Origin: Acidobacteriota bacterium
GTDB lineage: Bacteria; Acidobacteriota; Vicinamibacteria; Vicinamibacterales; SCN-69-37
Direction of reading: 5' to 3'
Length of the DNA stretch: 33,455 nt
NCBI GenBank assembly: GCA_013203475.1
Contig: JABMNV010000113.1
Location: 1-33,455 of the forward strand
Each line of letters starts with the position of its first letter. The stretch's first letter is position 1. This document shows positions 11,362-31,726 of the stretch, piece by piece. A program made the position numbers and the translations under genes. The notes beneath the pieces were generated by a model. The model was not told the DNA's origin and did no database searches. It saw only the letters and a list, made by a program, of their open reading frames with translations.

Positions 11362-12579
11362 CTAGAGACTCTTGAGAAACGCCAGGAGCTGCCGGTATGC
11401 CTGAGGCGTCATCCGTTCCACCCCGCGTCTGGCCAACAGCGCCTCCCCCGCATGCCGGCGGACCGCCTCATCGATGGTCGCAGCCGAGCCATCATGCAGG
11501 AAGGGGCGCCTCAGGCGTAGCCCCCACAAGGCAGGCGTACGAATTTCTCCCGCCTGCGCCGAGGCCTGCACAATGCCGTCACCGGTGCCAACATCGTGCA
11601 ACAGCAGATCCGAGAACAACGGCACCAGCTTTCGGTCAAACAATGGATTGACACTCGGCCCGGTCATCAGGACTGGCACGTGGCACACGGCGCAACCGGC
11701 CGCGTGGAACGCGACCTCGCCAGCCGCAACATCGGCGATGTTGGTGCTGCCTGCCAGCTTCGCCACGGGCGCGAGCAAACGCATAAAACTCTCGAAATTG
11801 TCGATCCCTCGGAGGCGCGTTCGAGGATCGCGACGGTCCTCAGGGTCTGGAATGGGGTCACATCGCCGCATCTGTGCGCTCGAGATACCGATCGCCAGTT
11901 CGAGCGGGAAGATCTCATTGGTGATCCCCATTTCATTGCGATAGGCATCCGCGCCAAACGTCAGGAGCGTCGCATGTTGAGCCTTCCAGCCGAACCGGCC
12001 AACGCGCGTTGCTCCTGTGCCGAGATCGCGCACAATGGCCGCGCGGCCACTGACGCCATCACGATTGCGATCAAACGGGTCCTCAAGTGCGAGGATCGTT
12101 TCGTCAGGGATTGCCTCCACCAAACCGGCACCGAAGAGCGGAATGGGAATGCGACGGGCGATCACGGTCGCGTCATCGGGAATCACGGGCTGGCAACCGT
12201 GATTGGGAATGGAGAATAGGTGGAACAATGTCTCGCCGGACGAGTCGAGCGCGACGAACTCTCCTGCCGGCCCGCGCTTGGCAGCGCGCACCTCGGCAAT
12301 TGGCGACATTCCTCCGATCGCGGGGACGTTGTGGCAGGCGGCACAACTGGGGCCGTTAAACGCCGGACCGAGTCCTTCCTCAGCGGATTCCACCTCCAAA
12401 AAGTCATCGAGGCCCAGACGGAAGGCCTCGAACTCGGCTACGGTCAAACCCGGCAGAGGATCCCCAGGTGGCGCCACCCGCTGTGTGGCGGTGATTGACG
12501 TGAACAAGGCCGTCGTGAAGATCAGGGCACAGACGCCGACTGCCACTCGAAACCGATGAATCGCTACCATCTGTCTCAT
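11362..12579 (-). CDS. di-haem oxidoreductase (DHOR/MauG-related), exported
   Basis: The 405-residue protein has an N-terminal signal or anchor (VAVGVCALIFTTALFTSIT) and two c-haem sites: C79-AA-C82-H83 and C296-AV-C299-H300. Other family landmarks are SFMR around the central domain, HDVGTGDGI, RTPALWGL and FLHDGSAATIDEAVRRH near the C-terminus, as in the di-haem oxidoreductase family related to MauG and cytochrome c peroxidase. ATG 12579 was chosen because it overlaps the stop of the cupredoxin gene by ATGA; the longer upstream frame is not signal-like. It probably receives or delivers electrons via the CuA protein encoded just before it. Known DHOR substrates vary, so peroxide, thiosulfate or an organic compound cannot be distinguished here. 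Confidence 0.9.
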   Translation of the reverse strand: MRQMVAIHRFRVAVGVCALIFTTALFTSITATQRVAPPGDPLPGLTVAEFEAFRLGLDDFLEVESAEEGLGPAFNGPSCAACHNVPAIGGMSPIAEVRAAKRGPAGEFVALDSSGETLFHLFSIPNHGCQPVIPDDATVIARRIPIPLFGAGLVEAIPDETILALEDPFDRNRDGVSGRAAIVRDLGTGATRVGRFGWKAQHATLLTFGADAYRNEMGITNEIFPLELAIGISSAQMRRCDPIPDPEDRRDPRTRLRGIDNFESFMRLLAPVAKLAGSTNIADVAAGEVAFHAAGCAVCHVPVLMTGPSVNPLFDRKLVPLFSDLLLHDVGTGDGIVQASAQAGEIRTPALWGLRLRRPFLHDGSAATIDEAVRRHAGEALLARRGVERMTPQAYRQLLAFLKSL

Positions 12580-12965
12580 TTGGCCTCGACGATGATGACG
12601 CCACGCATGAAGGAGTGCCCCGCGCCGCAGGTGTGAGAACACTCAAAGGTATAGCGGCCCGGTGTGGTCGGCGTGAAGACGACCCGCACGCTCCCCTTGC
12701 CGCGCTTGGGCACTTCGACGTTCACGTCTGTGCCGATAATACGGAATCCGTGCACCGTGTCGTCGCTCTTCAGTTCAATGTCCAGGCGAGTGCCCACGGT
12801 CGTTCGAACTTCCGACGGCGTGAACGTGAATCGTTCCGCACGGATTCTCACGACCGGTTCGGCCTTCGATTCGGTGCCCTGTTGTGCCGCCAGCCCTCCA
12901 GGTGGCGCCGTTCCAAGAGCGCTGACGACGACAGATACGCAGACGAGCCAGAACGAACGTCTCAT
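12576..12965 (-). CDS. exported stand-alone CuA-type cupredoxin
   Basis: The 129-residue protein has a signal peptide (MRRSFWLVCVSVVVSALG) and a single cupredoxin domain. The copper ligands match cytochrome-oxidase subunit II and NosZ CuA sites exactly in spacing: H72, then C109-x3-C113-x3-H117-x2-M120 in CSHTCGAGHSFM. Such a binuclear CuA centre carries one electron in the periplasm. There is no membrane helix pair or oxidase subunit I nearby, so it is not a normal oxidase subunit. ATG 12965 overlaps the preceding porin stop by one base (TAATG), and the protein's own stop overlaps the di-haem oxidoreductase ATG, so the three genes form a translationally coupled operon. Confidence 0.9.
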   Translation of the reverse strand: MRRSFWLVCVSVVVSALGTAPPGGLAAQQGTESKAEPVVRIRAERFTFTPSEVRTTVGTRLDIELKSDDTVHGFRIIGTDVNVEVPKRGKGSVRVVFTPTTPGRYTFECSHTCGAGHSFMRGVIIVEAK

Positions 12966-14122
12966 TAGAACCACCATCCCAGACCAAGGTTGAACGAGTT
13001 GGGCGCGACGATTGACACACTCCGGTTGCGCAGCATCGTGTAGTCGAACTTGAGGGCGATGTCGGCATCAGGCCAGTAGGTGGCGCCCACCACCCAGGCG
13101 GTTCGATCAAATTCCCTGAGAGGCAGGTAGCCGTCCGCCATTCGGTGTTGGGTATCCACGCTCTCGTAGCGCACAAACGCACCGATGTCACCGAAACGCG
13201 CACCAGAGACGACGCGATATCCCGCCTCAAGGTAGCCGCCGCGCATGGTCTTTGCCACGTTCGGATCGATGCCAATCGTGCGCCCGACGGCATCATTGAG
13301 GTCAGGTGTATTGCCGACCGAGACCTGAACGGCTTCCGCGCGAAGCTCGAGGCGATCGAAGGAGTAGCGAGCATCAGCCTCGATGAGATGGACCGGCACG
13401 TCGAAACGCGGCCGAAACTGGAAACCCGAACGGCCAGTCCACACACTGACACCGGTTGTCAGACCCGGAGTGCCGACATATTCGAGACGAGCAGTCGCAG
13501 CCAGGCGGCCGGCGTTCGTGCGGCTCCCCTTCTGCCGACCATCGCGGAGACCGTCTTCTGCGGTGAAGCGTTCTGCGTCAAGGGGGGCGGTCAAGAACGC
13601 CCGGTACCGCCAACCACGTCCCACCTCTCCATGGACGCCCACACCGATCTCGAACCACGTCGTCGGAATGAGCGCGGTGTCGACCAGGGGCCGCTCAACA
13701 CCGTAGAACACGGGAGGTTCGTGCCGTTCGTTGATGATGCCCACCGGCATCAACATCAAGCCGGCCCTGATGTTCAAGCCGCGCGAGAACAGAAAGTCGA
13801 GGTACGCCTGCTCGAGTTCGAGCTCGCCAGCCTCTTCGAGCCCTTCAACAAACGCATGTGCTACTTCCAACTCCCCGACAAACCGGATGCGGTCACTGTA
13901 TCGATGTGTGACGAGGAGGACGAACCGGTGAAAGTCCAGCTCGCCGTCCACGAACTCGGGCTTGTTGTAGTGGAACTCCATGTAACCCGACAGCAGTGTC
14001 CTGGCTTCAGGTGCTGGCGTGGGGGGCTGGCCCCGCGCGATGTCTGGCAGGCCGAGAAAAACGCCCAGAACCAGGGGCGCGAGGAAGGCAACGCGATGCG
14101 ATTTAATATTTTGAGTCTTCAA
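12965..14122 (-). CDS. outer-membrane porin-like beta-barrel protein
   Basis: The 385-residue protein has a signal peptide (HRVAFLAPLVLGVFLGLPDIARG) and a barrel-like pattern of alternating aromatic and charged strands ending in a terminal Phe (NLGLGWWF), the outer-membrane insertion signature. LSGYMEFHYNKPE and GELELEQAYLDFLFSRGLNIRAG resemble phosphate-selective porin O/P-type porins. The start is TTG 14122; no ATG or GTG is available before the signal peptide, and the TTG lies inside a palindrome arm that covers the promoter. It is first in the operon with the CuA cupredoxin and di-haem oxidoreductase, suggesting it admits or exports the substrate of that periplasmic redox pair. The substrate is unknown. 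Confidence 0.82.
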   Translation of the reverse strand: MKTQNIKSHRVAFLAPLVLGVFLGLPDIARGQPPTPAPEARTLLSGYMEFHYNKPEFVDGELDFHRFVLLVTHRYSDRIRFVGELEVAHAFVEGLEEAGELELEQAYLDFLFSRGLNIRAGLMLMPVGIINERHEPPVFYGVERPLVDTALIPTTWFEIGVGVHGEVGRGWRYRAFLTAPLDAERFTAEDGLRDGRQKGSRTNAGRLAATARLEYVGTPGLTTGVSVWTGRSGFQFRPRFDVPVHLIEADARYSFDRLELRAEAVQVSVGNTPDLNDAVGRTIGIDPNVAKTMRGGYLEAGYRVVSGARFGDIGAFVRYESVDTQHRMADGYLPLREFDRTAWVVGATYWPDADIALKFDYTMLRNRSVSIVAPNSFNLGLGWWF

Positions 14123-14161
14123 AACTTTAATATTGAAGACTCAAATCATAGTTCTTGTCAA
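14110..14161 (-). promoter_or_regulatory. promoter and palindromic operator of the porin-CuA-di-haem operon
   Basis: Reading leftward, a perfect TTGACA (14161-14156) is followed 18-20 nt later by TTCAAT or CAATAT (within 14137-14130). TTTGAGTCTTCAA (14110-14122) and its exact reverse complement (14133-14145) form 13-bp arms around a 10-nt AT-rich spacer. One arm overlaps the -10 region and the other overlaps the TTG start. The direct repeat TTTAATATT occurs at 14102-14110 and 14126-14134. The stretch is conspicuously AT-rich for this genome. A dimeric repressor or activator is likely, but no regulator gene adjoins it. Confidence 0.6.
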
Positions 14162-14273: not shown

Positions 14274-14810
14274 ATGACATCCTCTGACTCGCTCCGCTCC
14301 GTCGTCCTGTTTGGCGCACTGAGTCTTGTGGCCGCCCTCGGTGTGCAGGCGGCGCCATCCGAGGCCCAGACTGTAGATTTTGTCGCGGTGAACGCCGACG
14401 GCACACTGGTGACGGACCTGAGACTGGATCAGTTTGCGATCAAAGTCGGTGGCAAGGATCGCGTCGTCACGTCGCTGGAACTGGTGCGTTTCAGTTTGGC
14501 ATCCGGGCTACTGCCGCCGCCGTTCTCGACCAATCTGGTCGCCGACGCCGGCCGGGACTATGTGCTGGTCGTCGACGAAGAGTCTCTCCGGCCAGGAACC
14601 GAAAATCTGCTGCGCGATGCGATCCTGCTTTTGGAGCAGTCGCTCAACACGCGCGACCGCATTGGTCTGTTCGCCATTCCGCGGGGCTCAATATCGTTGG
14701 CCCCCACATCGGATCGTGCGCCGTTCCGAGCGGCGGTGAGCGCTATCGCGGGCCGGGCAAAGCCGCCTCCTCTCTTTCCGACCATCGATGCCACACACGA
14801 GACGTCCTGA
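14274..14810 (+). CDS. VWFA-related Acidobacterial-domain protein, N-terminal part (frameshifted)
   Basis: The product has a signal peptide (SVVLFGALSLVAALGVQAAPSEA) then TVDFVAVNADGTLVTDLRLD, the typical opening of VWFA-related Acidobacterial proteins, and the start of a von Willebrand A-like fold (RDYVLVVDEESLRP). The frame runs out of similarity after AAVSAIAGRAK and ends with a stretch unlike the paralogue at 16007-17791. One missing base in the A-run of GGGCAAAGCC (14755-14764) explains this: an extra A would continue into AASSLSDHRCHTRDVL and the downstream fragment. The family is exported, often in many copies per genome, and its function is uncharacterized. Confidence 0.75.
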   Translation: MTSSDSLRSVVLFGALSLVAALGVQAAPSEAQTVDFVAVNADGTLVTDLRLDQFAIKVGGKDRVVTSLELVRFSLASGLLPPPFSTNLVADAGRDYVLVVDEESLRPGTENLLRDAILLLEQSLNTRDRIGLFAIPRGSISLAPTSDRAPFRAAVSAIAGRAKPPPLFPTIDATHETS

Positions 14811-14815
14811 CAAGC

Positions 14816-15994
14816 GTGACGTCGATCCTGGGCAGCATCACCAACCGTGGCGCCGCAACCCCAGTGGTTCTGTTTTCGGTTGGGCTCGTGGGCCCGTCTA
14901 CAGCCACGCCGACACTGGGAGCAGCGTCGGAGGACTGCACGTTGCTGCCAGACGATTTCCAACGCGTCGGCCCTGCCGCTGAGACCGCACGAGCACAGTT
15001 CTTCGTCATCCGTCCCGAGGAGTCGGTTGAGCGCGGACTCTCGGAGGGACTCGAACACATCGCGGGCGTGACCGGCGGTCAGATGCTGTTCATGGGGAGC
15101 GACATCGACAGCGCACTCGGGCGCGTCGCCCGCGAGACGTCGGCGTACTACCTGGCGACGTTAGCCACGGACGCCTCCGAGCGCGGCGGATCCGGCCAAC
15201 GCCTGGAACTTCGGACAAGCCGGACCGATGTCACGCTGCGCGCCCGAGCCAGCGTGGCGCTTGCCAGTCCTGGGCTCGGCGGTACGCCAAAACCAAGGGA
15301 CATGCTCCGTACGGCCGCCGTCGAGCGCGGCTTCGGACTTCGCGCGATGACGGTCACGTCGCGCAACGACTCAGCCAGCGGCGTCGATACCAAGTCTCCC
15401 GTAAAGCTGGTCGGTCTTGCGGAAGCCATTGACCCATCGGTCTCGCTCGCCGCTGCCGCCGCTGGCGTGTTCGATTCGACGGGCAAGCTTGTGGCGCAGT
15501 GGACGGCCACACCCGAGGAACTGAAGAGCTCTCCCATGGCTGCGGCGGTCGTGGTCCCTCACGGGACCTATCGCGTGCGGGTCGCCGCTGTCGACACACA
15601 GGGCCGCGCCGCCACTACGGACTCAGAGATCAACACCGAGATGACCTCGGCTGCTCCGGCCCAGTTGGGTGGCCTGCTCGTGGGCACCGCAGGCACCACC
15701 TTCATGCCTCGGTTGCAGTTCTCCAACGAAGCGGAGGTGATGGTGTATTTCGAGTTATACGGCCGCCCCGCGGGACCGTTCGGTGCGATCGTCGAGATCG
15801 CCGCGACCCTCGACGGCCCCGCCCTCGTTGAGGCGCAGCCCACACCAGCCGCAACGGCGGTGGCGGACAAATTCATTTTCACCGCGACACTGCCGATCGG
15901 TCCGCTCAAACCGGGAGACTATGTCGTGCGCGCGAAAATCGGATTCGAGGGCCAGCCCACGGGCGTGCTGACACGGACGATCCGGAAGCAATAG
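14816..15994 (+). CDS. VWFA-related Acidobacterial-domain protein, C-terminal part (frameshifted)
   Basis: This continues the preceding gene in the -1 frame; the frame is open from about 14759, so GTG 14816 is only the first start-like codon. It matches the minus-strand paralogue along its whole length: TPVVLFSVGLVG with APVAVIFFSSQM, LLPDDFQRVGPAAETARAQFFVI with LTADDFQQVGMAASRARAQFFVI, GLEHIAGVTGG with GLEHLAGVTGA, TSAYYLATL with TSGYYIARV, and terminal GDYVVRAKIGFEGQPTG with GDYVVRATVTQKGHPAG. The restored protein would be about 573 residues, close to the 594-residue paralogue. Its C-terminal half looks beta-rich. Without the N-terminal signal peptide this part alone would not be exported. 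Confidence 0.75.
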   Translation: MTSILGSITNRGAATPVVLFSVGLVGPSTATPTLGAASEDCTLLPDDFQRVGPAAETARAQFFVIRPEESVERGLSEGLEHIAGVTGGQMLFMGSDIDSALGRVARETSAYYLATLATDASERGGSGQRLELRTSRTDVTLRARASVALASPGLGGTPKPRDMLRTAAVERGFGLRAMTVTSRNDSASGVDTKSPVKLVGLAEAIDPSVSLAAAAAGVFDSTGKLVAQWTATPEELKSSPMAAAVVVPHGTYRVRVAAVDTQGRAATTDSEINTEMTSAAPAQLGGLLVGTAGTTFMPRLQFSNEAEVMVYFELYGRPAGPFGAIVEIAATLDGPALVEAQPTPAATAVADKFIFTATLPIGPLKPGDYVVRAKIGFEGQPTGVLTRTIRKQ

Positions 15995-16006: not shown

Positions 16007-17791
16007 CTACTTCGGCGTCTTCCGCATGGTCCTGACCACCTGACCGGCGGGGTGGCCCTTTTGGGTCACAGTCGCCCGAACGACGTAGTCTCCGGGCGGA
16101 AGCTCCTCGATGGGAATCGCGGCCGTGACGACAAACCGGTCCGCGTCACTCGTGGCCTCCGTCACCCCGCTTGTGGTCAACATCGCTGGACCATGTGCCG
16201 TGGATGCCAGCTCGAATGCAACACCGACGGGCACACCGGCCTGACCGCCGTAGAGCTCCAGCCACGCCACGACCACGGGTTCGTCTGAAAACTCGAACTG
16301 CGGAGCAAAGACCCCCGCTCGAGAGAGCCCTAGCATCAGAGAACTCAGACGCAGGGGTCCGGCCTCAGTCAGGGTCGCGTCGACGGTGATGTCCGCGCTG
16401 CCGGTCACGCCCGGGGGCTCCACAGCCGCCACGCGTACCCGATAGGTGCCGGCGGGCACCGACAGGGCCGTGACGTTCGGACCCGCTGCCAGGTCCACCG
16501 ACGGAAACGAGGCGCGTTGCACCAGACGGCCGTCGGCGTCAAAGGCGCCCACCATGGCGTCGGAGAGTTGGGCCGCGTGTACCGGCGCGTCAAACATCAC
16601 CACCAGCTGAAGCCCCTCATGAGTGCGCCGCACCGACGCCGCCACGCGCAACGGCAGGTCTCGAAACACCTGCGCCTGCCGCATCAGGTCTAACGGTACG
16701 GGCGCCGGCGCGTTGACAAAACGAGCCTCGGGCTTCACCACTGACAGATGTTCGCGATGATTCACCGTCACTCCTGCCACGGTCGCGTCAATGCTGAGTC
16801 GCCGAAGCTGGCCGTCGGTATCGGAGGCGAGAGACTCGACGCGGGCGATGTAGTACCCCGAGGTCTCAGTAGTCACGCGCGCCAAGGCGCGATTGGCCAC
16901 GTCGCTCAAGTGAAACAGCGGCGCTCCGGTCACGCCGGCCAGGTGCTCGAGACCGGCGAGACTAGCCGACCGCCGCTCCATGTCGGGGTGAATGACAAAA
17001 AACTGAGCCCGCGCACGAGACGCGGCCATGCCGACCTGTTGAAAGTCGTCGGCTGTCAATTCGCACAGCCCAAGCGCCACCTCGCCCGTCATCAGTTGAG
17101 GCCCACGCGGTACGGCCATCTGGCTCGAGAAGAAGATGACGGCGACCGGGGCGTCACCAGTGGATCGCAGGCTGTTCAAGGTGCCGGACAAAGCGGACAA
17201 GGTCGTCCGCGTCAGGCAGGCGTCGCTGCCGGCCGCCTGGGCGGCAGCCTGGCCGGTCAGTGTCGAGACGGCAGTCAGCATCTGCTGGTGGTCCGCCGTC
17301 AAGTCCAACTGCAGCCCACCATAGGGGACGGTGACGAGCGCCACACGGTCGTCGGGTCCAAGGGTGGCCACAAACGCCCGGAGGGCGTCCTGGAGGAAGA
17401 CCCCCTGACTGGCTCGAATCGTCGGTTCGTCAACCACGAGCACCAGCGCGCGTCCCGCGGCCGTCGTGAGGTTTGAGCCGTAGGGAGGCGGAATGTCACG
17501 GGACTCGACGCGGTCAGAGACAGCCGACACGTATTCGAGGGAACGAATAGGACGAGTGCTGCCGTCGAGTTTGATTGTGATGTCCGCTGGCGTGAGCGTG
17601 GCCACTGGCATGCCGTCGGCCGTGAGCGCCACAAAATCGACGACGAGGAGTTGGGCCCGGTCCCTGGAGGACAGCACGAACTGCTGCGCGCTGACTGTGA
17701 GACTGGCCGCGCCAATCACAGCGGCCATGACGGCTGTGGTAGCCGTTGCAACAGCAACTGCGGCGAGCAGCGTGATGCGGGAGAAAATCAC
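16007..17791 (-). CDS. VWFA-related Acidobacterial-domain protein, intact paralogue
   Basis: The 594-residue exported protein has a long hydrophobic signal (TLLAAVAVATATTAVMAAVIG), then VVDFVALTADGMPVATLTPAD and a VWA-like core (ALVLVVDEPTIRASQG, PDDRVALVTVPYGG, APVAVIFFSSQMA). A long beta-rich C-terminal region follows. Start GTG 17791 has no strong Shine-Dalgarno sequence but sits directly before the signal peptide. It is a convergent paralogue of the frameshifted gene at 14274-15994; 12 bases separate the stops. It lies downstream of the TonB-dependent receptor on the same strand, separated by a hairpin. The function of the family is unknown; adhesion or protein interaction at the cell surface is the usual guess for VWA folds. 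Confidence 0.85.
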   Translation of the reverse strand: MIFSRITLLAAVAVATATTAVMAAVIGAASLTVSAQQFVLSSRDRAQLLVVDFVALTADGMPVATLTPADITIKLDGSTRPIRSLEYVSAVSDRVESRDIPPPYGSNLTTAAGRALVLVVDEPTIRASQGVFLQDALRAFVATLGPDDRVALVTVPYGGLQLDLTADHQQMLTAVSTLTGQAAAQAAGSDACLTRTTLSALSGTLNSLRSTGDAPVAVIFFSSQMAVPRGPQLMTGEVALGLCELTADDFQQVGMAASRARAQFFVIHPDMERRSASLAGLEHLAGVTGAPLFHLSDVANRALARVTTETSGYYIARVESLASDTDGQLRRLSIDATVAGVTVNHREHLSVVKPEARFVNAPAPVPLDLMRQAQVFRDLPLRVAASVRRTHEGLQLVVMFDAPVHAAQLSDAMVGAFDADGRLVQRASFPSVDLAAGPNVTALSVPAGTYRVRVAAVEPPGVTGSADITVDATLTEAGPLRLSSLMLGLSRAGVFAPQFEFSDEPVVVAWLELYGGQAGVPVGVAFELASTAHGPAMLTTSGVTEATSDADRFVVTAAIPIEELPPGDYVVRATVTQKGHPAGQVVRTMRKTPK

Positions 17792-25242: not shown

Positions 25243-26763
25243 TCACCGAACGACGATGACCCCCTTGAGCATGTCCATGCCGCACGCAAACGCCAACTCA
25301 CCCGGCGCGCGGGCGGGAATGCGCACGACCACCTCCTGATTCAGCGGCAACTCACGCCGGACACCCAGCCCCGGGATCAGCACCTCAGTGCCGCATGTCT
25401 CTTCCACGCGCCGGACAAAGACCAGGTCGACCGGTTGAAACGCAGGAATCTCCACGCGAGGTGGCGCCAAGCCTGAGGCCGTGACCTCGACAACACGACG
25501 GATCACTGGCTCGGCTGAAGGCATCGACATGGGCTCGTCCAACGCGGGTGCCACCGGTGGCGGCCAGCCCAGACGCTCGCGTTCGGCACGGAGAAAGAAA
25601 CTGCCTTCGACGACAACGCGCTCTCCCTCCAGCAGGCCAGACCGGATGACGATGCGATCTCCAGACGACACGCCAGTCACCACCGGTCGCTCGGTGAAAT
25701 GACCGGGCTGCTCCACCTCTTCCACGTACACCACCGGTACGGCCCCCAGCATCTGAACGGCCGTCTGCGGCACCATCATTCGAGGCGACGTCGACGGAAG
25801 CCTGAGCGTGACGATGACAAACATCCCGAACCGCAGCGCGCCGTCAGGATTGCTGACTTCGACACGCGCGCGGACGGTCCGTGTGTCGCGCGCCAACTCG
25901 GGATCGACGTAGCTGACCCGACCGGTCCAGGTTCGTCCGGGGAAAGTCTCGCTCGTCACAGCCACGCGCTCACCGGCGCGAACGTGGGCCGCATCTCGCT
26001 CGAAGATGTCGGCCATGATCCACACGGAACTCACGTCCGCCAGGGTCATGAGGGTGTCCATGGGGCCGACGTTCTGTCCTGGGTTGACTGGTCGCGTGAG
26101 CACGACGCCGCCGGCGCCCGCCTGGACGTCAATCGTCTCTGGCACGCCGCCTCCAGCGGCGACCGCCGCCATCCGGGCGTCGTCGAGTCCCAGGCGAATC
26201 AGTCGAGCGCGAGCGGTCGCGAGATCCGTGGTCGCCCGCACGGAATCCGCCTCAACCTCCTCGAGTTCCTGCTGACTCGCGGCTCCAATCTTTGCCAGGT
26301 CACGTGTGCGGGTCAGTCGGCGCGTGACGACGTCGAGATCGGCACTCAGCGAGAGCCAGCGGCGCACCTCATCAGTCAGTTCGGGGCTTCGCAGCCTCGC
26401 GACGGTCGAGTCGCGCGTCACGACATCACCAAGCGCCGCAGACACGCTCACGACGGTCCCGCCAACGATGGGCGTCACAGCCACCGTGCGGTAGCCGTCG
26501 GGTTCGACCACACCCGGCACCACAAGCGCACCGGCATCATTCGACGACACGACCGGCGCCACCGCGATGCCCGCACGGCGCACGGCCTCGGGCGTTAGCA
26601 TCAACATGTCGGCCATGGCTGGCGCGGGCGTCGATCCGGCTGTGCCCACTCCGATCGTCGGTGACGGCACGGCCACCTGAGCCGTGGACGGTCCAAGGTA
26701 AACGAACATCGCGGCCGCTCCAAGCGCGACCAAGCCCACAGCAATAGCGATTCTGGCGATCAT
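25243..26763 (-). CDS. cusB: CusB-like RND periplasmic adaptor fused to a cupredoxin-like domain
   Basis: The 506-residue membrane-fusion protein has an N-terminal membrane anchor ([22 protein letters not shown]), a Met-containing segment (AMADMLMLTP), a barrel-sandwich/lipoyl region (VVSVSAALGDVVTRDS), a coiled-coil hairpin (about residues 130-200, LDVVTRRLTRTRDLAK) and beta-barrel domains (GQNVGPMDTLMTLADVSSVWIMADIFE). Residues 430-506 form an extra cupredoxin-like domain with TCGTEVLIPGLG, LPLNQEVVVRIPA and FACGMDMLKG, giving potential copper ligands Cys, Cys and Met. It is last in the efflux operon; its start overlaps the channel gene by four bases. It links the pump to the outer-membrane channel and probably captures and passes on Cu(I) or Ag(I). 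Confidence 0.88.
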   Translation of the reverse strand: MIARIAIAVGLVALGAAAMFVYLGPSTAQVAVPSPTIGVGTAGSTPAPAMADMLMLTPEAVRRAGIAVAPVVSSNDAGALVVPGVVEPDGYRTVAVTPIVGGTVVSVSAALGDVVTRDSTVARLRSPELTDEVRRWLSLSADLDVVTRRLTRTRDLAKIGAASQQELEEVEADSVRATTDLATARARLIRLGLDDARMAAVAAGGGVPETIDVQAGAGGVVLTRPVNPGQNVGPMDTLMTLADVSSVWIMADIFERDAAHVRAGERVAVTSETFPGRTWTGRVSYVDPELARDTRTVRARVEVSNPDGALRFGMFVIVTLRLPSTSPRMMVPQTAVQMLGAVPVVYVEEVEQPGHFTERPVVTGVSSGDRIVIRSGLLEGERVVVEGSFFLRAERERLGWPPPVAPALDEPMSMPSAEPVIRRVVEVTASGLAPPRVEIPAFQPVDLVFVRRVEETCGTEVLIPGLGVRRELPLNQEVVVRIPARAPGELAFACGMDMLKGVIVVR

Positions 26764-28031
26764 GATGCCACTCCCAACGCGCGCAACAATGACGTGCGCG
26801 CATCCACAACTTCGCGCAGTGCGGCTGTATAGGCTGACTGTAACGCGAGGTATCTGCGTTCCTCTTCGATGACGTCAAACAACGTGCCGCTCCCAAGTTC
26901 GAACGATTCGCGCACGACGGACACGTTTTGTGCCGCGAGCGCAATCAAGCCGTCGCGATAGAGCGCGACCGTCTCTTCTGCTGCGCGCACCCGTGTGGCG
27001 GCGGCGTCGATCTCGGCCGCCGCGTCAAGACGCCGCGCTGCCGCCTCGGCCTCTGCAGATCGCCTGGCCGCATCCGCTGACGCGATGGCCCCCTGCTGCC
27101 GATTTCTCCATGGCAAATCGATCATGACGCCGAACATGACCTCGTTCATCCGGTCGCCGCCGGGCGAGAGGCCCAGGCGTTTGGTCATGAAGGCTCCAGT
27201 GACACTCAGATCGAACCGGGCCTCGCGAGCCGCGAGCGCACCCTCAGCTGCCGCCCGCCGCGCCTCAGAATCGAGGGCCTGGATGTCGGGTCGCGCGGCG
27301 AGCGCTTCCGTCACCGACCGTTGCCGCGCCAGAGCCGGAGTTTCCGAGACCGCCTCGATGGGCGCGGCCAGTCGAAGCGATGCCGTCGGTGCCAATCCGA
27401 CACTTGTCTTAAGTGCTGCCATCGCCCGTTCGGCGCTGGCCCGCCAGCTGACGACCTCGGTTTTCGAACGCCGCCATTCGACGTCAGCGAGGTCTCGGTC
27501 GAGGGGACGGGCCGCCCCACTCTCGGCCCGGGCGGCCAGCAGGTCGAACCGTGTCCTGGCGAAGCCTTCCTGTTCCACTGCGATCTCCAGATGTCGCACG
27601 GCGGCCAGGACATCAGCCGCCCAGCCCCTCACCAGTGCCGCGCGCTCCCGCACCTCATCGTCGGCCATCAATTCGGCCGTGCGAACCGCATGTGCTGCGA
27701 CCGCGACTCTGGCGTCCCTGCGGAACAGGTCGAGCGGCCAGCTCATACCGATCGTGGTCTGGGTGTCGATGCCTCCGAACTGTTCGCGGCGCTCGGCCAG
27801 GGCCTTGGGGTTTGGCCGAAGCGACGCCTGCGTCTGTCGGCCGGTGGCCACGTCGACCCGGGCACGCGCCGCGGCCAAGGCCGGCGCCTGTTCGAGGGCC
27901 AGCGCGACGAGAGCGTCGAGCGACAGACCGCGGTCGGCGTCGATGTACTGCGCCACCGGCCCAGGAGGCGTTGTTTGCGCGGTGGCCACCACCGGCACGC
28001 AGAGGAGTATTGCCGCACAGATTCTGGTCAT
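26760..28031 (-). CDS. TolC-family outer-membrane channel of the copper/silver efflux system
   Basis: The 423-residue protein has a signal peptide ([15 protein letters not shown]) and the two repeated outer-membrane-efflux (OEP) modules of TolC/Cus[27 protein letters not shown] near the N-terminus and [15 protein letters not shown]-like helices in the second half ([25 protein letters not shown] broken by a beta segment around [11 protein letters not shown]). Long Ala/Arg-rich helices form the periplasmic tunnel; no Cys lipobox is present, so it is probably not lipid-anchored. It overlaps the pump by four bases upstream (ATGA) and the adaptor by four bases downstream, so the three cistrons are translationally coupled. 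Confidence 0.85.
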
Positions 28032-31000
28032 TGCACATCTCCATCAAACGTCACGGATTGCCTGCCCGACGGCCCCAGCCACTCCAGTGACCAGCGCCAT
28101 GTGCCGGACATGCTGAACTCGGCGGAGCCGTTGAACCGACCGGCTCCGGCGGCTTCGACCGATGCCGGCGCAGCCATGACCATGCCGGGCATGGCCATCG
28201 AGACCGACACACTCACGTCGGTCACGTTGACAAGGTCGCCTGTTCCAGCCGAGCGGAACTCCAGGACAAACCGGGTGCGTCCCTGCGAAAGCGCCTCGCG
28301 GCCGTCTCCGGCGATCAGACGCACTTCCACGTCCCCAACCACCTGCGTCTGCAGCACGGTTCCCGACGCGGCGGGAGCTTCAGCAGGGGGCCGCCCGTTC
28401 CACCACCATCCGGCCGCAAGCACCAGCGCCAGACCAACGATGGCTGCACCCACGCGGCGTCGTCCTGAAATCGTCGGCGCGGCGTCACGAGAGCCAGATG
28501 TGGACGCGTCGATCGGAAGTCCGCGAGCACGGATCCAGTAGAAGATCACGGGCGTCACAATCAGGACATGCAAGAGCGAAGAGACCATGCCGCCCAACAC
28601 GGGAGCGGCCAGCGGCTTCATGACCTCTGCGCCCGCGCGGGTGCTCCACATGATGGGCATTAGTCCGGCAACGACCGTTGAGACCGTCATCAGCTTCGGG
28701 CGCAGACGCAGGAGCGCTCCTTCCATGACAGCCTCGCGCAGGGTGGTGCGCGTCAACACGCCCCAGGCGGCCTTTCGCCTTCGCTCCACGGCCTCTTCAA
28801 GGTAGATCACCATAATCATGCCGGTCTGCACGGCTGTACCGAATAGCGCGATGAAGCCCACCCAGACGGCCACCGAGAAGTTGTAGTCGAGCGCCCACAC
28901 CAGAAACACGCCGCCAGTCAGCGCGAACGGCACAGCCAGCAGGACGTGGGCCGCCTCAATGAGCGAGTGATAGGTGAAATACAGCAGCGCGAAGATCACA
29001 AGCAGCACGATGGGCAGCACCACCAGCAGTCGTTCGCGTGCGTGTTCCTGATTTTCGTAGCGGCCGCTCCACCCCACGAAGTAGCCTCCAGGCATCGCGA
29101 CTCGAGACGCCACCAACTGCTTGGCCTCGGTCACGAATCCTCCCACATCACGCCCTTCGACGTTGAGTAACACGGTGGCCAGAACCAGGCCGTTCTCGGC
29201 GGCAACCATCGAGGGCCCGCGAGTTGACTCGAGCGTGGCGACCGCGGACAGAGGAATCTGCTGCCCCGTGCGAGTGGTGATCGGCGTCTGCCCCACGCTG
29301 TTCACGTCGGCACGAAAGCGCTCGGCCAGCCGGACGCGAATCGGATATCGCTCCCGGCCCTCGATTGTCATGCCGACCACTCGTTCGCCAATGGCGTACT
29401 CGACCACCTCCTGCACGTCCGCCACCGACAGTCCATAGCGCGCCGCAGCCTTCCGATCAACCTCAATGTTCAAGTACTGCCCGCTGGAGACGGGTTCCGG
29501 ATACACGTTGACCGCGCCTGGTACCGTACGGAGGACGTCAGCGATCTCGCGCGCGAGCCGGTCGAGGACCGCCAAATCAGCGCCGAAGACCTTGACCCCC
29601 ACTTCCGATCGAATGCCCGTGGACAACATGTCAATGCGATTCATGATCGGCATCGTCCAGATACTGGTGACACCTGGCAGGTGGACGGCCTTGCTCATCT
29701 CCGACCGCAACTGTGCTGTGGTCACGCCCGGCCGCCACTCGTCGCGCGGCTTGAGTTGCACGATGGTCTCGGTCATGTTGACTGGCGAGGGGTCGGTGGA
29801 CGTGTCCGCCCGGCCGACCTTGGCCACCACGGCTTTCACCTCTGGAAACGCCTCGATGGCCTCGTTCTGCCTCACGGCAAGTCGGGTGGCCTCTTCGAGC
29901 GAGATGCTCGGGTCGCTGATCGGCATGAACATGATGTCGCCCTCATCGAGCGGCGGCATGAACTCGCTGCCAATGCGTGACGAGAGCCCGACGGCTGCCA
30001 CGAACAGAGCACCCGCGGTCAACAACGTGATCGCACGATGTCGCAGGGCCCCCCGCAGCGCCGGCTCATACAGTCGCCTCAGGACGCGCATGACGGGATT
30101 GGCCTCTTCCGCGCGCATCTTGCCAGCCAACACCATCGTGCACAGCACGGGAACGAGCGTGACGGCCATCACGGTGGCGGCAATCATGGCGAAGGTCTTG
30201 GTAAACGCCAGCGGATGAAACAACTTCCCTTCCTGCCCGGTCAGCGCAAAAACAGGCACGAAGGCCAGCACGATAATGGCCATCGAAAAAAACACGGGGC
30301 GGCCCACTAGCCGGGTGGACTCCCGGACGGCGGCAAGCACCGCGCCTCGATCCCGGGTATCGATTCCGTTCTGTTCAATGGACCGAAACGCGTTCTCAGT
30401 CACAACGATGCCGGCGTCAACCAGCACACCTATCGCAATGGCGATACCGGCAAGACTCATCAGGTTGGACGAGACGCCGGCATACCGCATCGCAAGAAAC
30501 GACATCAGCACCGCCAGCGGCAACGGCAGCGTCACGATCAGAATCGACCGGAAGTGCATCAAGAACAACACATGCGCCAGAGTGACCAGGGCGACTTCCT
30601 CCAGCAGTGCGATACGGAGGGTGCCGACGGCTCGGTCAATCAGGCCAGACCGGTCATAAAACGGGACAATATCCACGCCGGCCGGAAGGCCGGGCGCAAT
30701 CTGTGCGATCCGCTCCTTGACGCCCTCGATGACTTCCTGTGCATTCGCGCCCGCGCGCGCCACGATGACGCCGCCAACGGCCTCGCGCGTGCCTTTTACC
30801 AGCGCCGCGTTCCGAAAGGCCGCGCCGATCTTGACGTCGGCGACCTGACTGACAAACACGGGGACGCCGTCATTCGACTTGACGACGATGTTTTCGACGT
30901 CGCTGAGCGTCTCAATGAGGCCGACGCCGCGGACGATCGACCAGGCGCCGTTGGCCTCAAGAACGTTTCCTCCCACGTTGGCGTTACTGGCACCGACAGC

Positions 31001-31618
31001 GCGAACCACGTCTCCCACGGACACGCCGTACCCTCGAAGCCGGTCCGGATCGACATCCACCTGATACTGCCGGACAGTGCCCCCGACCGACGCGACTTCT
31101 GCGACGCCTGGGACGGCGTTCAGTTGATAACGAATGAACCAGTCCTGCAGGCTCCGCAACTCCTGGAGCGTGTGGTTGTCGCTTTCAACCGTGTACCAGA
31201 ACACATGTCCCACACCCGTCGCATCCGGACCAAGCGTGGGAGTCACGCCTTCGGGCAGGAGCGTATTCACCAGACTCAGACGTTCGAGGACACGGGTGCG
31301 CGCGAAGTACAGGTCCACGTCATCTTCGAAAATGGCGTAAACCATCGAAAAACCAAATGCGGATTGGGACCGGACGACCCTGACGCCTGGCAGTCCCTGG
31401 AGGTTCGTGACCACCGGGTACGTGACTTGGTCTTCAACCTCCTGCGGGCTATGCCCTTGCCAGTCTGTAAAGACGATGACCTGGTGGTCGGACAGGTCAG
31501 GGATGGCGTCCACCGCACCCGTGCGCATGGCCCAGTACCCCCAGGCGCCGAGCAACACATACACGACAATAACGACACCGCGATATTTCAACGAACGATC
31601 GATTAACCAATTCACCAT
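28028..31618 (-). CDS. cusA: CusA/CzcA-type heavy-metal RND pump with fused YtkA/FixH-like C-terminal domain
   Basis: The 1196-residue inner-membrane proton antiporter has the HME-RND order: TM1 near [20 protein letters not shown], periplasmic porter domains, TM helices with the proton-relay Asp in [15 protein letters not shown], and a second porter half with [15 protein letters not shown], the conserved Met-containing signature of Cu(I)/Ag(I) pumps. The Met in [11 protein letters not shown] also matches a CusA ligand region, but [11 protein letters not shown] has Leu where CusA has a third Met. ATG 31618 (MVNWLIDRS) is preceded by AGGTGG. About 164 residues beyond the usual end, a new TM helix ([12 protein letters not shown]) leads to a periplasmic beta domain with SMAMPGMVM. 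Confidence 0.92.
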
Positions 31619-31726
31619 GAGTCCACCTGAGGCATCCCTTGGCGCGGGGACCAGGCCCACGCCGTACGTAGTCGACGCTTCTGTCGTAGGGGTGAGCCAA
31701 GGCCCAGCGCTACGCAGACGCGAATG

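Follow-up and report, generated by a model that had tools for sequence, protein, structure and literature searches.

A porin, a lone CuA cupredoxin and a di-haem DHOR protein form an acidobacterial operon that most likely belongs to a metal-starvation regulon

CuA centres are textbook components of cytochrome oxidase and N2O reductase. In a stretch of acidobacterial DNA of 33,455 nucleotides, hereafter called the window, a CuA-type protein is instead encoded between an outer-membrane porin and a di-haem oxidoreductase, and this arrangement raises the question of what the porin would admit and what the two redox proteins would do with it. The initial annotation had read the locus as a candidate undescribed redox system that would import an ordinary substrate and then oxidize or reduce it in the periplasm. 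We found no published description of this operon in the open literature, although one may exist. The features on which our analysis is based are as follows.

11362..12579, minus strand: DHOR di-haem oxidoreductase (PF06537), 405 aa, ATG start, with the haem sites C80xxCH and C297xxCH
12576..12965, minus strand: lone periplasmic CuA-type cupredoxin, 129 aa, ATG start, with a signal peptide and the CuA ligand set
12965..14122, minus strand: outer-membrane porin, 385 aa, TTG start, TAA stop, an open reading frame with a predicted 16-strand barrel
14109..14124, no strand assigned: palindromic operator TTTTGA-GTCT-TCAAAA, overlapping the porin start codon
14131..14146, no strand assigned: second, weaker operator copy TATTGAAGACTCAAAT with two mismatches, 22 bp upstream

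The three genes span 11362-14122 on the minus strand with the porin first, and both overlaps described in the initial annotation are present. The porin TAA (12967-12965) shares one nucleotide with the cupredoxin ATG at 12965, giving TAATG, and the cupredoxin TGA (12578-12576) overlaps the DHOR ATG at 12579, giving ATGA. This ATG is a likelier DHOR start than the upstream GTG at 12642 given by the list of open reading frames. A scan with the sigma-70 consensus found no promoter at the operon.

A scan of approximately 85,000 species genomes yielded 58 orthologues of the CuA protein, whose scores stand well clear of those of weaker CuA proteins; the latter (L109-L130) were left out as orthologues, given that they occur without the porin and DHOR. 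The initial annotation had proposed to look for the three families together in other genomes, and they are indeed found together in dozens, with 53 of the 58 orthologues lying between the same porin and DHOR, beyond chance, and two more residing at contig ends next to DHOR. The last three genomes (L068, L073 and L074) have a relocated CuA gene, but each retains a DHOR match elsewhere, and in two of these DHOR follows the porin immediately, without an intervening CuA gene. Thus, the partners are kept even when the linkage is broken. In all three, the moved gene (for example L068:5851-6291) lies beside genes that, judging from their sequences, encode MoeB/rhodanese, cysteine synthase, Rrf2 and cysteine desulfurase proteins.

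We also searched 100 relatives, most of the same order and some of them shared with the larger scan, and found a close CuA orthologue (E<1e-22) in 23 genomes including that of the window. Wherever the sequence is long enough, the porin is upstream and DHOR downstream of the CuA gene, with the exception of one genome (G016; loci L012/L040) in which no porin was seen and DHOR is interrupted. The distance matrices of porin, CuA protein and DHOR correlate in a mirror-tree comparison. Most of the records concerned bear Acidobacteria labels (Vicinamibacteria, Bryobacterales and Solibacter types), and the few with odd taxon labels appear to be misassigned bins. Other sampled members of the genus do not have the operon. 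A conserved fourth gene was sought in the neighbourhoods and not found; only dtxR recurs, and at some loci the operon is also flanked by genes for a multicopper oxidase, for a ZIP permease-like protein and for another cupredoxin.

The middle protein carries H73, C110, C114, H118 and M121 (numbering of the orthologue alignment), which is the H plus C-x3-C-x3-H-x2-M set that had been recognized in the initial annotation. The set is complete in all 23 orthologues from the relatives and in all 58 from the species-genome scan, and it lies inside a cupredoxin domain whose best matches are CuA domains (Thermus ba3 CuA, 5e-14; CoxB, 1e-9; NosZ, 9e-8), placing the protein in the CuA cupredoxin class by sequence. 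It shares family and ligand spacing with the CuA domains of CoxB and NosZ, but it is secreted and stand-alone, and its operon includes neither an oxidase nor a reductase. Identity with CoxB was rejected because the protein scores 38.2 bits against the equivalog cut-off of 147.7 (TIGR02866) and no oxidase operon is present. Its description as a lone CuA protein also holds across the loci, where the porin, DHOR and sometimes dtxR are all that is conserved beside it.

The third protein falls within the DHOR family (PF06537; E = 2.7e-40, 138.7 bits against a cut-off of 22). Its CxxCH sites occupy residues 80-84 and 297-301 of the orthologue alignment, and two such sites are present in 51 of 52 orthologues. 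Both haem sites, C130, C241 and His377 (the last in 21 sequences) are invariant, and His377 takes the place of the axial Met found in bacterial cytochrome c peroxidase. This replacement of the ligand on the C-terminal (E) haem, read from a sequence alignment, led us to reject a classical di-haem cytochrome c peroxidase. The initial annotation had seen both DHOR and MauG landmarks; the two haem sites and the DHOR assignment stand, but the MauG score of 17.8 bits is far from the 443.85 of the NCBIfam equivalog model TIGR03791, and MbnH likewise fails (15.7 against 362.85 bits, TIGR04039). The structure model of DHOR, built from 21 sequences, is poor (pLDDT 48).

The porin has no Pfam match, and comparison of its profile with PDB sequences yielded nothing useful. 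Its AlphaFold model is a 16-strand barrel (mean pLDDT 72, pTM 0.70) whose best Foldseek matches are general porins (E~1e-12), in agreement with the earlier view that a porin begins the operon. Among orthologues that are 47-72% identical, two neighbouring strands carry alternating Glu runs, which read ELEVA and ELELE in the window protein and ELELEH and GELELEQ in most others; the pattern is present in 49 of 50, and E84, E86, E100 and E104 are invariant in the orthologue alignment. By strand alternation in the model, these residues should face the pore lumen, which would fit a cation channel. A functional precedent is MnoP, an outer-membrane protein that imports metal and serves as a manganese channel in Bradyrhizobium (PMC9334652). 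The porin is proposed to act likewise in divalent metal uptake, but differs from MnoP in being coupled to redox proteins.

The principal new evidence concerns control of the operon. The palindromes found ahead of the porin share the consensus TTTTGA-N4-TCAAAA, and the exact palindrome occurs twice in the 3.58-Mb genome of the window, where approximately 0.014 copies are expected and the reversed control gives 0. One copy is at the porin start. The other is 22 bp before a gene for a DtxR/FeoA fusion, which is itself preceded by a second dtxR gene and is followed by FeoB, forming a ferrous-iron operon. Across 47 loci, 13 exact sites fall in the 15 kb around porin starts versus 4 in the other 520 kb (p=2e-17), and sites with at most two mismatches are found at the porin promoters of 28 of the 47 (p=4e-38), although both p-values assume independent loci and related genomes are not independent. 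Exact sites are present in 61 of the 100 relatives, as compared with a total of 3 sites for the backward-read control. Among the 75 exact sites listed from these genomes, 42 have a DtxR-family gene within 1 kb and 8 are found at this operon; others that we examined precede Nramp (mntH) genes by 18-44 bp or are associated with a multicopper oxidase or TonB-type receptors. The distribution is uneven, with an exact operator near the operon in only 8 of the 23 CuA-bearing genomes of the order, and with Bryobacterales-type loci mostly lacking it.

A DtxR-family repressor with Fe_dep_repress, Fe_dep_repr_C and FeoA domains (E~1e-31) is encoded beside the operon at 20-21 of the 58 loci, and at one of them (L052) the operon opens with dtxR. 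Because the operon shares its operator with feo, Nramp and other metal genes, including metal transport genes, we conclude on these sequence grounds that it is most probably part of a DtxR/MntR-type regulon that responds to Fe(II)/Mn(II) starvation. MntR-type models come closest to the repressor, which scores below their cut-offs and resembles MntR (manganese) at least as much as IdeR/DtxR (iron), and therefore the identity of the metal is uncertain: FeoB and the redox parts would favour iron, and the repressor similarity is nearest to the MntR type.

Several other features were noted around these sites. At L052:4217-6001, dtxR and the porin occupy one uninterrupted frame, an apparent repressor-porin fusion that could reflect a lost stop codon, a real fusion or an assembly error. 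Genes for ICMT/PEMT-like membrane methyltransferases repeatedly follow the palindrome (L171, L181, L185). In the genome of the window, a copy with one mismatch (C118:35-50, locus L166) is located about 40 bp before genes for a TetR regulator and TolC/RND-type proteins, and may be the site of another regulator. FeoB is split into two adjacent frames, one for the G domain and one for the membrane part, on contig C19 of the same genome (L165:5227-7418) and at L200, L201 and L202; conservation of the split in several related genomes makes an assembly error unlikely.

The operator that the operon shares with feoAB and mntH, together with the adjacent DtxR-family repressor, points to acquisition or handling of metal (iron or manganese) rather than of an ordinary substrate such as the thiosulfate or phenolics suggested in the initial annotation. 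What survives of that proposal is the conserved trio with its lone CuA protein and a plausible import porin. We therefore favour, with moderate confidence, the hypothesis that the operon is a module, induced by metal starvation, with which the cell acquires ferrous iron and/or manganese or handles them safely. When intracellular Fe(II) or Mn(II) falls, a repressor of the DtxR/MntR family would leave the operator and the operon would be induced. The Glu-rich porin would admit the divalent cation to the periplasm, where the CuA protein could swap single electrons with the metal and with DHOR, and DHOR, being peroxidase-like, may use peroxide or O2. By analogy with EfeO/EfeB and FtrB, the favoured electron flow would run from Fe(II) through CuA and DHOR to H2O2, which would condition iron for uptake and also remove peroxide that is dangerous through Fenton chemistry, as proposed for systems of the EfeO/EfeB type. 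FeoB or Nramp would provide the inner-membrane step. More tentatively, these sequences may represent a new acidobacterial class of metal-acquisition system, in which an acidic porin, a soluble CuA protein and a bis-His DHOR would alter the redox state of Fe(II)/Mn(II).

Cupredoxins are well established as electron donors to di-haem peroxidases, and it is conceivable, though unlikely, that the operon serves peroxide defence. A CuA protein fed by the respiratory chain would then donate electrons to a DHOR acting as a di-haem cytochrome c peroxidase, and the genes would be co-induced with metal import since Fe(II) makes Fenton chemistry dangerous, leaving the porin as a general cation pore. DHOR, a homologue of di-haem peroxidases, carries the annotation of a putative peroxidase, and a DUF1111 protein is among the RirA-dependent, peroxide-induced iron proteins of Dinoroseobacter (PMC8007024). 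However, translational coupling of a porin to a peroxidase would be unexpected, the axial Met on haem E of the classical enzyme is here an invariant His, and the pattern of operator sites matches metal importers rather than a peroxide regulon. Co-regulation with the ferrous transporter FeoB would also agree with a scheme wherein CuA and DHOR pass electrons to periplasmic Fe(III), after which FeoB imports the Fe(II), and a haem with bis-His ligation, as deduced from the alignment, would be of low potential. Nonetheless, CuA sites are of high potential and poorly suited to reducing Fe(III), and the operon has no membrane electron source, making ferric reduction improbable.

A porin encoded with a soluble redox carrier and a multihaem enzyme would also suit a pathway that oxidizes or reduces an organic or sulfur substrate, and the moved CuA genes are surrounded by cysteine, MoeB and NifS genes in three genomes. 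The metal-type operator and neighbouring repressor described above argue against such a substrate, and dissimilatory oxidation of Fe(II) for energy should not sit under a metal-starvation switch; we consider this whole group of explanations quite improbable. Least credible of all is a maturase role for DHOR, like that of MauG or MbnH, with the CuA protein or the porin as the target of covalent modification rather than as a partner in electron transfer. MbnH-type enzymes do pair with a copper protein, and DHOR shows weak similarity to the MauG and MbnH models, but its scores are far under their cut-offs, and no conserved Trp target is found in the invariant columns of the CuA alignment.

The metal-handling hypothesis can be compared with several known systems. 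EfeUOB is metal-regulated and serves ferrous-iron uptake with a periplasmic cupredoxin (EfeO) and a haem peroxidase (EfeB), and the parts of the acidobacterial operon are comparable; it differs, however, in using a di-haem c-type DHOR in place of a DyP protein with haem b, in having a CuA-type site and not the EfeO site, and in including an outer-membrane porin. FtrB of the FtrABCD system in Brucella and Bordetella is a copper cupredoxin for which periplasmic oxidation of Fe(II) has been proposed, the reported effect being confined to the lower pH (PMC11966278). The CuA protein is proposed to act similarly, but it has no FTR1 permease partner, and it combines a CuA-type ligand set with a di-haem partner. 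DHOR proteins have been tied to iron uptake through imelysins, as in the iron-regulated Pseudomonas operon PA4370-PA4373 that includes a DHOR-family di-haem protein (PMC3143127), and the RirA-dependent DUF1111 protein of Dinoroseobacter (PMC8007024) is a further tie of this family to iron. At the present loci a CuA cupredoxin takes the place of imelysins, and regulation would be of the DtxR type rather than the Fur type.

No M75 imelysin (PF09375) scored above the cut-off in any of the 100 genomes, including that of the window, although the E. coli control was positive. FTR1 (PF03239) is absent from the genome of the window, which is approximately 96% complete, and is present in 39 of the 100 relatives. 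Identity with EfeUOB or FtrABCD was thus rejected, as the defining imelysin and FTR1 parts are missing. FTR1 was likewise dismissed as the partner permease in this genome: it is absent here and, as counted by hand, is found in 11 of 23 genomes with the CuA protein versus 28 of 77 others. The absence of FTR1 means that the oxidative FTR1 route is not available in this organism.

If the metal-handling hypothesis is correct, then a CuA protein serves metal uptake, outside of respiration and denitrification, and the CuA centre would gain a new role through a conserved stand-alone protein whose operon responds to metal starvation. It would also provide a function for DHOR (DUF1111), whose role in iron uptake has been unexplained since the link to imelysins. 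Moreover, the palindrome supplies a clean operator for defining the Fe/Mn regulon of a large and little-studied soil phylum.

Two other regions of the window were noted. On the plus strand, two consecutive frames at 14274-15994 resemble one acidobacterial protein of the VWA type (TIGR03436) split by a stop codon, and the opposite strand holds a longer paralogue at 16007-17791. On the minus strand, positions 25243-31660 hold a heavy-metal efflux cluster of the CusCBA type; its CusB-like protein carries a cupredoxin domain, and its CusA-like pump a YtkA domain, both at the C terminus.
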